A stretch of 64,000 bases of DNA from contig NZ_CP136708.1 of assembly GCF_032925565.1 (NCBI RefSeq), positions 1-64,000 on the forward strand, read 5' to 3'. The position numbers and the translations under genes are program-made. The stretch comes from Alteromonas sp. CI.11.F.A3 (GTDB lineage: Bacteria > Pseudomonadota > Gammaproteobacteria > Enterobacterales > Alteromonadaceae). Of the stretch, positions 49,431 to 51,395 are shown in pieces. Positions within the stretch are counted from its first letter, which is position 1, and every line of letters starts with the position of its first letter. The notes beneath the pieces were generated by a model. That model saw only the letters and a program-made list of their open reading frames with translations. It did not search any database and had not been told where the DNA came from.

Positions 49431-49473
49431 TGGCGCACCCGACAGGATTCGAACCTGTGATCTTCGCCTCCGA
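49431..49473 (-). repeat. Distal copy of the tRNA-Arg 3' end (putative att site)
   Basis: Identical to 51318-51360 at 42 of 43 positions; the one mismatch is T at 49462 versus C at 51349. It includes the CCA end, acceptor 3' strand, T-arm and part of the anticodon arm; similarity stops at 49474. Confidence 0.88.
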
Positions 49474-49579
49474 CGGAGGCCCGTCAAAAAGGGATTGAGA
49501 GTTTCATGACCACTAGCCGATTTATGACGATTAACACCATTGGTCACGGTTACGTCACGGGAAATGCTTTAAAATAGAT

Positions 49580-49681
49580 AACACCCTGTAAGGTATAATT
49601 TGACACTTATACCGTTAAGGGTATATTGAACTTAATATACCTTTTAGGGGCTAGGGTCAACGTTATACCTTAAAGGGACTA
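49580..49681 (+). promoter_or_regulatory. hipBA promoter with four operator-like sites every 28 bp
   Basis: Site 2 is a perfect dyad, TATACC-GTTAAG-GGTATA (49608-49625). Variants start at 49580 (AACACC..GGTATA), 49636 (TATACC..GGGCTA) and 49664 (TATACC..GGACTA), each 28 bp after the previous one. TTGACA (49600-49605) and TATATT (49622-49627), 16 bp apart, form a good sigma-70 promoter overlapping site 2. E. coli hipBA is also repressed through four HipB sites, with a different core. Confidence 0.75.
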
Positions 49682-49697
49682 ATAGTGGAGAGGCATA

Positions 49698-49958
49698 ATG
49701 AAGCTTAATAACTCAAAAGAACTGGCTGATTATATAAAGCTGCATCGAAATAATCTTGCACGAACGCAGACCGATGTTGCACAGAATGTTGGTTTAAAGC
49801 AAAAAACCATCTCGGCTATTGAAAATTCCGCCGGTACCTCTCGTATTGATACCCTCTTTAAAATTGCGCATGAACTAGGCCTCTCTATTGAGCTTAAGCC
49901 AAAGCAAGAAAATGAAAACGGCCAAAAGACCGAAAGTGGCTGGGATCAGGAGTGGTAA
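49698..49958 (+). CDS. hipB: HipB-type antitoxin and autorepressor
   Basis: 86 residues. An XRE-type helix-turn-helix (about 22-62: TQTDVAQNVGLKQKTISAIENS, then DTLFKIAHELGLSIEL) makes it the operator-binding protein of the pair. The protein ends in Trp (DQEW), like E. coli HipB, whose C-terminal Trp sits in a pocket of HipA. It should bind the four-site array upstream and repress hipBA, with HipA as co-repressor. hipA follows after one base. Start ATG 49698 is preceded by GGAGAGG. Confidence 0.88.
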   Translation: MKLNNSKELADYIKLHRNNLARTQTDVAQNVGLKQKTISAIENSAGTSRIDTLFKIAHELGLSIELKPKQENENGQKTESGWDQEW

Positions 49959-49959
49959 T

Positions 49960-51246
49960 ATGGAGCTGATGGTAAGCCTTAACGGGGTCAAAGTAGGTAC
50001 ACTGTTAAAAGATAAGAACGGTGGGCTCTATTTTTCTTATACCGAACATTGGATGAAGCGCTCAGGCGCACGCCCTATTTCTTTGTCGTTACCTATTACA
50101 AAGCAAAAATACTCTGGCGATCTCGTTTATAACTTCTTTGATAACTTGCTTCCCGACAATCCATCCATACGAAATAAAATACAAGCTAGATTCAATGTAG
50201 GCTCTGGACATGCGTTCGATCTTTTAGCGGCGATAGGCAAAGATTGTGTGGGTGCTATTCAATTATCTTCAGAACAACCTGAGTCCGTACAACAACTAAA
50301 CTACAGGGTGTTGTCAGATGAATACGTTGAGAAATTATTGCAAGGCTACAAGCATACAGCGCTTGGAATGGAAAATGACGATGATGACTTTCGGATTTCA
50401 ATTGCTGGCGCCCAAGAAAAAACCGCGCTACTCAAAATTGGTCAACAATGGGCGAAACCGACGGGCTCAACTCCAACAAGTCACATAATGAAATTACCCA
50501 TGGGCGAGTTACCGCAAGTGGGTATCGATTTAACCGATAGCTGTGAGAACGAATTTATTTGCCTAGAGCTGGCGAGAGCCTTTGATTTTAATGTGGCTAA
50601 TTCAGAGGTGCTTTACTTTGGCGACCAGAAAGTTCTAAGCGTTGAACGCTTTGACCGTAAATATGCATCTGACGGTTCATGGCTCATGCGCCTACCCCAA
50701 GAAGATTTTTGTCAGGCAATGGGCATTTCATCTGCTCAAAAATACCAATCTGATGGTGGCCCAGGAATAACAGACTGCTTAAATTTGCTCACGGCATCGT
50801 CTAACGGGAAAGATAGAGAAACTTTTTTTAGGACTCAGATATTCTTTTGGCTAATTGCTGCTATTGACGGTCATGGTAAGAATTTTAGCGTATTTTTAGA
50901 GCCTGAAAATACATATAGAATGACTCCTTTATATGATGTCTTGTCGGCGTTTCCTGTTATGACTAAAAAAGCCTTACAGCCACAAAAGATCAAAATGGCT
51001 ATGTCTTTAAAAGGCAAAAACACTCACTGGAAATGGAACGATATTCAGCCTCGCCATTTTGTATCGACTGCAGTTCAGGTGAAATACCCCTCAGACAAAG
51101 CTGCATCGCACTACGAATACTTTGTCGATAATGTTGAGAACGCGATTGCAAAAGTCGAAGGTAAAATTCCCGATAACTTCCCACCCTACGTAGCGGAGGC
51201 AATTTTTTCCGGCCTGAGAAAGCAAGCATCTAAAAAATTGTTATAA
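49960..51246 (+). CDS. hipA: HipA-family serine/threonine kinase toxin
   Basis: 428 residues from ATG 49960 (AGGAG upstream, one base after hipB). An N-terminal couple_hipA domain is followed by the kinase core: GAQEKTALL (150-158), the flexible TPTSH loop (171-175) where HipA autophosphorylates, VERFDR (228-233), catalytic Asp303 in AIDGHGKN, and DVLSA (326-330). E. coli HipA (440 residues) phosphorylates glutamyl-tRNA synthetase and causes persistence; the target of this one is unknown. All key positions are present, so it should be active. It lies inside a tRNA-flanked island. Confidence 0.9.
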   Translation: MELMVSLNGVKVGTLLKDKNGGLYFSYTEHWMKRSGARPISLSLPITKQKYSGDLVYNFFDNLLPDNPSIRNKIQARFNVGSGHAFDLLAAIGKDCVGAIQLSSEQPESVQQLNYRVLSDEYVEKLLQGYKHTALGMENDDDDFRISIAGAQEKTALLKIGQQWAKPTGSTPTSHIMKLPMGELPQVGIDLTDSCENEFICLELARAFDFNVANSEVLYFGDQKVLSVERFDRKYASDGSWLMRLPQEDFCQAMGISSAQKYQSDGGPGITDCLNLLTASSNGKDRETFFRTQIFFWLIAAIDGHGKNFSVFLEPENTYRMTPLYDVLSAFPVMTKKALQPQKIKMAMSLKGKNTHWKWNDIQPRHFVSTAVQVKYPSDKAASHYEYFVDNVENAIAKVEGKIPDNFPPYVAEAIFSGLRKQASKKLL

Positions 51247-51317
51247 ATAGCCAGTGATTAAGTGCAACTGCCTTGACCGGTTGCTCTGTTAAAGTTCGAC
51301 ACGAGTATCCGATAAAA

Positions 51318-51360
51318 ATGGCGCACCCGACAGGATTCGAACCTGTGACCTTCGCCTCCG
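51318..51360 (-). repeat. Proximal direct repeat inside tRNA-Arg (putative att site)
   Basis: The 3' 42 nt of the tRNA-Arg gene plus one flanking base. It pairs with 49431-49473, 1,887 bp away. The tRNA is left intact, as usual for tRNA-integrating elements. Confidence 0.88.
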
Positions 51361-51395
51361 GAGGGCGACGCTCTATCCAGCTGAGCTACGGGTGC
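51319..51395 (-). tRNA. tRNA-Arg (anticodon CCG)
   Basis: 77 nt on the minus strand. Acceptor GCACCCG pairs with CGGGTGC, D-arm GCTCAGCTGGATAGAGC, anticodon stem TCGCC/GGCGA around loop CTCCGGA (anticodon CCG, codon CGG), T-arm ACAGG-TTCGAAT-CCTGT, and encoded CCA. All stems pair. Confidence 0.96.

Follow-up and report, generated by a model that had tools for sequence, protein, structure and literature searches.

Cis-mobilizable elements (CIMEs) are defined, in the relevant part of PMC5704250, as elements that have kept their att sites and lost their integration and transfer genes, the definition naming decayed ICEs or IMEs. In Dehalococcoides, 15 islands at ssrA are described as lacking an integration module in the account given by PMC3146451. 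PICMI satellites (PMC10803314) and tmRNA islands moved by a jumbo phage (PMC12595487) are introduced in their sources as small integrase and AlpA elements with defence cargo. As for hipBA as cargo, a plasmid-borne pair is called a potent stabilisation system in PMC11487325, and one IME in PMC5704250 carries two HipA-B-related pairs.

The locus analyzed here lies in a stretch of 64,000 nucleotides (the window), which is part of the single-contig 4.66-Mb genome of the marine Alteromonas sp. CI.11.F.A3. Genomes and loci are labeled Gnnn and Lnnn, respectively, with G000 being the window genome. Its hipBA unit resembles the CIMEs of PMC5704250 in being flanked by att-like sites, lacking integrase and transfer genes, lying at a tRNA 3' end and belonging to a hotspot with stacked elements. 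It differs in measuring 1.9 kb with a single toxin-antitoxin pair, and the intact elements at this tRNA are satellite-like rather than ICEs or IMEs. While the putative att sequence is well kept, the arm motifs of local satellites are absent. The unit itself holds no satellite remnant, and decayed gpA satellites are seen in relatives (G038, G010). As to movement in cis with an adjacent element, hipBA stands beside gpA remnants in G010 and Paraglaciecola marina only.

The Dehalococcoides islands are likewise integrase-less, lie between a target gene and a repeat of its 3' end, and share a hotspot with integrase-bearing relatives, whereas their target is ssrA, their recombinase is a serine recombinase and their cargo consists of reductive dehalogenase and other genes (PMC3146451). 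PICMIs and tmRNA islands resemble the intact tRNA-Arg elements described below; however, PICMIs as outlined in PMC10803314 combine a fis site with a primase, whereas the intact elements here combine tRNA-Arg or tRNA-Met with a gpA initiator. Neither the genes of these systems (integrase, AlpA, primase, gpA) nor the PICMI arrangement of int, alpA and primase adjoining fis was found in the window unit.

Structure of the hipBA locus

The features of the locus, with the basis for each in brackets, are as follows.

47931..49316, minus strand: nhaC-type Na+/H+ antiporter gene, one flank (ORF and family match)
49430..49472, minus strand: distal att-like scar, repeating the 3' part of tRNA-Arg(CCG) (identical at 42 of 43 positions)
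49473..49697, plus strand: leader, with a remnant of a dispersed sequence followed by the hipBA promoter region with half-sites (sequence comparison)
49698..49958, plus strand: hipB, 86-aa HTH_3 antitoxin (HTH_3 family match)
49960..51246, plus strand: hipA, 428-aa HipA kinase toxin (Couple_hipA and HipA_C matches)
51247..51317, no strand: 71-bp right end of the island, common to G098, G056 and G033 (without satellite arm motif)
51319..51395, minus strand: intact tRNA-Arg(CCG), integration target (tRNA call and Rfam)
51673..52080, plus strand: cytochrome c gene, other flank (ORF and family match)

The direct repeat (49430-49472 and 51318-51360) is 43 nt long with a single mismatch between its copies, and consists of the 3' end of tRNA-Arg(CCG), the only tRNA gene in the window, plus one flanking base. 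An earlier note on this DNA had reported this repeat with the same identity, which holds, but had placed it at 49431 with a spacing of 1,887 bp; the start is 49430 and the start-to-start distance 1888 bp. The repeat covers the tRNA from anticodon to 3' end, with the copy beginning at tRNA position 36. Such an extent is the familiar shape of tyrosine-integrase att sites. A 37-base core of the repeat occurs at only 2 places in the whole 4.66-Mb genome (≤ 3 mismatches; reversed-pattern control 0). By Rfam scan the tRNA scored above threshold and the scar at 49430-49472 was a weak tRNA match of 20.6 bits; the one sub-threshold match lay on the strand opposite tRNA-Arg(CCG).

That hipB and hipA are the sole content between the copies, as the note had also proposed, was confirmed by ORFs and family matches, the one remaining ORF wholly between them (50999-51229, minus strand) overlapping hipA. 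The absence of an integrase was borne out across the 64-kb window (0 Phage_integrase matches, with 7 elsewhere in the genome). The same tRNA-hipBA-copy structure was found in two separately sequenced relatives, L088 of the same species (Alteromonas sp. MMG017, genome G098) and L089 of another, so an assembly artifact is unlikely.

Both proteins align with their E. coli counterparts (PDB 2wiu, 5k98 for HipBA): HipA over residues 3-419, where the segments frisiagaqektall, idghgknfs and tplyd are well conserved, and HipB over residues 2-86. As in type II toxin-antitoxin systems of the HipBA kind, the HTH antitoxin gene lies directly upstream of the HipA kinase gene. From this conservation and a dN/dS of about 0.1, HipA is predicted to be a toxin neutralized by HipB. 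The target of HipA in E. coli and the instability of HipB are general background and form no part of the evidence. The leader contains five half-sites of the form TATACC/GGTATA (49592, 49608, 49620, 49636 and 49664) whose spacing is identical in P. marina, and they are therefore likely to be an operator bound by HipB.

Further to the left in the leader, an intergenic sequence of ~130 bp adjoins the scar in G010, G056 and, in shortened form, the window; its positions are 49488-49587 in the window, L019:15527-15690, L126:1719-1772, L175:9298-9424 and L176:9714-9793. This sequence was considered as an element end and rejected, since it stands alone in G289 and G256 (another genus of the family), with no tRNA or hipA match in the fetched stretch, and is thus a dispersed intergenic sequence. 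Its pattern was not found in viral contigs.

Insertion and hotspot at tRNA-Arg(CCG)

Neighborhoods of the best tRNA match were fetched from 57 congeners, some of the stretches ending at contig ends. The tRNA-Arg(CCG) was called by ARAGORN in 56 of the 57 (the exception being G021), the cytochrome gene was present in 42 and nhaC in 12. Empty sites were found in three genomes (L017 of G008, L033 of G024 and L046 of G037), where the nhaC match and the tRNA lie 137-152 bp apart with no copy in the gap; in G037 a degraded tRNA copy lies 13.4 kb away. The tRNA-nhaC junction that the earlier note had proposed to compare therefore exists in relatives, these being more distant congeners (nhaC of G024 is 83% identical), and no empty site was seen within the close relative group. 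In a further locus (L051 of G042) the gap is 206 bp and, by eye, holds a 3'-end scar of another hipA type.

Among close relatives, G038 has no hipBA, and the same repeats enclose a 206-aa gpA C-terminal remnant and a 491-aa SEC-C protein. The whole window structure is present in G056, with hipA about 96-97% identical, and in G033 hipBA adjoins the tRNA on a contig that stops short of the far copy. G010 keeps hipB and the first 55 residues of hipA, after which come a gpA C-terminal remnant and two other genes. In junction alignments the flanks agree as far as the repeat; beyond it, the contents differ on both sides in G038 and on the right side in G010. The start of the copy within the tRNA varies, being position 36 in the window, 34 in G010 (T1-45) and about 29-30 in G011.

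Other cargo together with an integrase between this tRNA and its copy had also been suggested as something to look for, and was found in G009, G025, G031 and G053, where genes for a tyrosine integrase, an HTH protein and gpA replication, along with cargo, occupy the 8.5-11.3 kb between the tRNA and a partial copy. The empty sites in distant congeners, the other cargo in G038 and these integrase-bearing elements at the same tRNA show that the hipBA unit was inserted at the tRNA-Arg(CCG) 3' end, upholding the tRNA-targeted integration first proposed from the sequence of the window. The outcome that the note had named as refuting it, the same hipBA and copy in all relatives, did not occur.

The tRNA-Arg(CCG) gene is an integration hotspot in Alteromonas. 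Homology to gpA was present in the fetched stretch of 17 of the 57 congeners and near full length in 6. The G025 element has the domains PF00589, HTH_17 and PF05840, and its cargo gave PADLOC matches to cll, beta, capP and a type IV restriction enzyme; satellite arms of type TGCTACAYATTT stand at both element ends. A search of 375 genomes of the order at E ≤ 1e-100 gave related integrases in 16. Two of these, G009 and G025, belong to the congener set; of the other 14, fetched as loci L188-L201, 9 have a tRNA (Arg or Met) and a 3' copy starting at position 31-33, 7.9-12.9 kb apart. Integrase, HTH and gpA genes occur together in 14 loci (G009, G025, G031, G039, G053, L188, L189 and L191-L197); L188 ends at a contig edge, and the satellite of G032, split over contigs, was left out of this count. 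A narrow literature search on gpA satellites at tRNA genes gave no paper, and a looser one gave papers touching on part of the subject; a search for an Alteromonas tRNA genomic island with integrase and satellite gave none.

As a side observation, a family of 7.9-12.9 kb integrase-gpA elements (L018, L034, L040, L062 and L189-L197), most with an HTH_17-like gene, is spread across the order. They target tRNA-Arg (CCG, CCT) and tRNA-Met and are PICMI-like, but with gpA in place of the primase.

Degraded tRNA-Arg copies were also observed left of the DUF2960-nhaC block (L045:10405, L046:5131 and L048:9360, in oriented coordinates), which raises the possibility that this block, too, is an island of this tRNA, an older one, and that islands are stacked here. 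Left of the nhaC block in the window (43267-46502), a DUF2357/PDDEXK_7 gene adjoins a match to the PADLOC candidate defence family PDC-S69 (E 1e-106), and these are possible defence genes.

hipBA at this and other tRNA genes

Outside the window's lineage, G011 carries hipB-hipA alone in 2.0 kb at the same tRNA, bounded by its own tRNA copy (48/49); its HipA is 44-48% identical to that of the window, and its left neighbor is not nhaC. A relative of this pair (HipA 82%, and about 44-45% to the window) lies between nhaC and the tRNA in G036, without a copy there. G013 and G039 have a third HipA type, a 397-aa HipA_C protein, 94% mutually identical and with no BLAST match to the window HipA, again between nhaC and the tRNA; their homology to the empty site stops 9 and 6 bases inside the tRNA end, respectively.

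HipA_C matches numbered 116 in 46 of 59 genomes of the genus. Nine lie less than 3 kb from tRNA-Arg on its 3' side, against about 0.08 expected at random (G000, G098, G056, G033, G011, G036, G013, G039 and G024, with nhaC in between in G024). These are not nine events but four HipA lineages, of which three occupy the slot itself. One more match lies within 3 kb on the other side of the tRNA (G021). As accessory genes gather at hotspots anyway, this excess is not specific to hipA.

The analysis also covered 139 hipA loci selected without regard to tRNAs (79 plus 60 of 65 genomes; 138 distinct, L093 being the same as L239). A tRNA was present in 17 and a copy of its 3' part in 5, all 5 enclosing hipA (L088, L089, L097, L098 and L244), of which L088 and L089 belong to the window's own group. 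In L097 (a deltaproteobacterial MAG) and L098 (a Desulfuromonadaceae MAG), tRNA-Phe, hipBA and a copied tRNA-Phe end occupy 2.4-2.7 kb, the copies stopping 6-7 bases before the tRNA end in the BLAST match; the two share hipBA and neighbors and hence count as one case. The probability of enclosing hipA by chance is 0.04-0.08 for each tight tRNA-copy pair, and 0.56 for L244 (7.7 kb). L111 and L256 have copies of the tRNA 5' part that do not enclose hipA. Between tRNA-Phe and hipB in L098 (9478-9545), a sequence resembling a tRNA-Leu 3' half ending in CCA was noticed by eye, where the Rfam scan made no call.

The presence of two more divergent hipBA lineages with no other cargo in the same slot, and of a similar tRNA-Phe island in Desulfuromonadaceae-type MAGs, appears to be new; among the papers listed by literature searches, none describes a hipBA-only tRNA island, judged by title and start of abstract.

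Relatives of hipA in Paraglaciecola and Thalassotalea suggest that hipBA has probably moved between genera too. In P. marina, hipA is 89% identical and tRNA-Arg(CCG) lies 4.3 kb away; in a Paraglaciecola MAG the 3' part of hipA is about 1 kb from tRNA-Arg(CCG); and in a Thalassotalea MAG hipA is 76% identical, with no tRNA in its 13.8-kb contig. Homologues of hipA were found in 1824 plasmid records, all at < 60% identity. No stretch of the viral contigs matched the hipA patterns, and 3 integrase candidates there were not confirmed.

Several minor features were seen at these loci. In P. marina (L091:11653-15180) a gpA remnant and the tRNA are separated by genes for an AAA ATPase and a subtilase (Peptidase_S8). 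In the Thalassotalea MAG (L092:1191-5037) inspection by eye placed hipBA beside an ATPase gene resembling that of a Tn7-like transposon and a possible AlpA-like gene. Rheinheimera texasensis (HipA 53%) has a partial tRNA-Arg copy (L093:9103-9151) about 0.6 kb left of hipBA, the full tRNA about 94 kb off and another partial copy about 88 kb away on the other side.

Age and origin of the unit

The hipBA unit is common to the same species (G098) and two further species (G056, G033), and is truncated in a third (G010). Between the window and G056, identities are 96.3% for hipA, 96.6% for hipB, 94.0% for nhaC and 89.6-98.5% for right-flank segments; against G033 they are 94.3% for hipA and 90.6-95.6% for right-flank segments. 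Divergence of hipBA therefore roughly tracks that of the flanks within the species group. The dN/dS of hipA is 0.09 against G056 and 0.12 against G033 (and 0.23 against the very close G098, on just 13 differences), showing purifying selection. The tree of four flanking genes, rooted on G024/G036 and with G033 lacking nhaC, was ((((window,G098)89,G038)58,(G033,G010)100)58,G056). Together with the shared unit, this tree indicates that hipBA was probably present in the ancestor of the group and then mostly inherited, the unit being shared by descent within it. Placement of G038 within the hipBA clade rests on nodes supported at 89 and 58%; loss of hipBA from G038 is thus the simplest reading, with weak support.

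The unit is probably a decayed, immobile, CIME-like island skeleton left after a tyrosine-integrase insertion, which is the most likely reading given that it is old, diverges as its flanks do and has a dN/dS of about 0.1. Under this scenario, an ancestor of the Alteromonas species group would have acquired a tyrosine-integrase element, integrated at the tRNA-Arg(CCG) 3' end. Since the att core of the element would span the anticodon to the 3' end, the tRNA would have stayed whole, its 3' part being copied to the far side beside nhaC. We infer that the integrase and other mobility genes were then lost, leaving hipBA alone in a unit that would be immobile today. Inheritance of the pair would have been mainly vertical, and selection for toxin-antitoxin function would have maintained it. 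HipB would repress hipBA via the repeated half-sites and neutralize the HipA kinase, and HipA would remain in any cell that lost the pair, so addiction presumably explains the retention of hipBA, and the suggested stabilization of the unit by HipA is plausible. Of the two origins offered in the earlier note, the decayed island is the better one, as divergence tracks the flanks and decay is visible at this tRNA in G038 (gpA remnant) and G010 (hipA matching ends after residue 55). The other, a minimal element moved in trans, gained no positive evidence.

In that second account, two att sites and hipBA would form a cargo-only element moved by the integrases of tRNA-Arg satellites. Such mobility would fit the hipBA-only units of different lineages at this tRNA (the window clade, G011/G036 and G013/G039), the P. 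marina hipA close to the same tRNA and a scar that still matches at 42 of 43 positions. It is nevertheless quite improbable, because the window genome has no satellite-type integrase (best 34% over 137 aa; satellite-type query only), the satellite arm motifs are absent from the unit, hipBA roughly follows its flanks within the species group and the 71-bp right end was not found at the P. marina copy. If trans-mobilization of hipBA units does occur, few tRNA-integrating elements would be smaller.

The possibility that hipBA is former cargo of an int-HTH-gpA satellite from which everything else was deleted is less remote, though still unlikely. The gpA C-terminal remnant follows soon after hipA in G010 (65 bp) and P. 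marina (87 bp), and the G038 deletion runs from the repeat edge into gpA. However, the position of hipBA left of gpA in G010 and P. marina would also result if two elements had stacked and a deletion had followed. No HipA match was found in the 14 int-HTH-gpA loci or in the other five of L188-L201 (four HipA types, with which distant HipA would be missed), nor by a HipA_C family search inside the element in the five Alteromonas int-HTH-gpA loci. The right end of the window's unit is without satellite arms, and neither that end nor the leader matched intact satellites significantly (best E 0.44). The satellite integrase, gpA and arm motifs had no match in the hipBA unit, which has neither the integrase, HTH_17 gene and gpA of these satellites nor TGCTACAYATTT arms at its ends; a search of the window genome for gpA, run without a positive control, gave no match either. 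An ancient tRNA duplication unrelated to hipBA, the last alternative, might draw on the partial tRNA copies common nearby, including short copies of the other half on the cytochrome side in G006, G015, G031, G045, G046 and G048. It was rejected as extremely improbable, being contradicted by G038 and the empty sites: the gaps of the three empty sites hold no copy, different cargo lies between the same copies, and the homology of close relatives ends at the repeat edges.

On the preferred reading of a decayed skeleton, the site offers a worked decay series of a tRNA-targeted island in one genus, with intact satellites, half-deleted ones and a two-gene skeleton. Recurrence in other species and at tRNA-Phe favors toxin-antitoxin pairs as the last survivors of decaying tRNA islands, and suggests that such pairs may outlast the elements that brought them. 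Their repeated survival makes the old idea of deletion resistance testable via the remains of decayed tRNA islands. More tentatively, hipBA-only units at tRNA 3' ends could be recurrent minimal islands, arising through addiction, which would prevent the final deletion, or through integrases that move them in trans as cassettes. The window genome also has a second HipA_C gene, far from the window (G000:C1:1200623-1201360).
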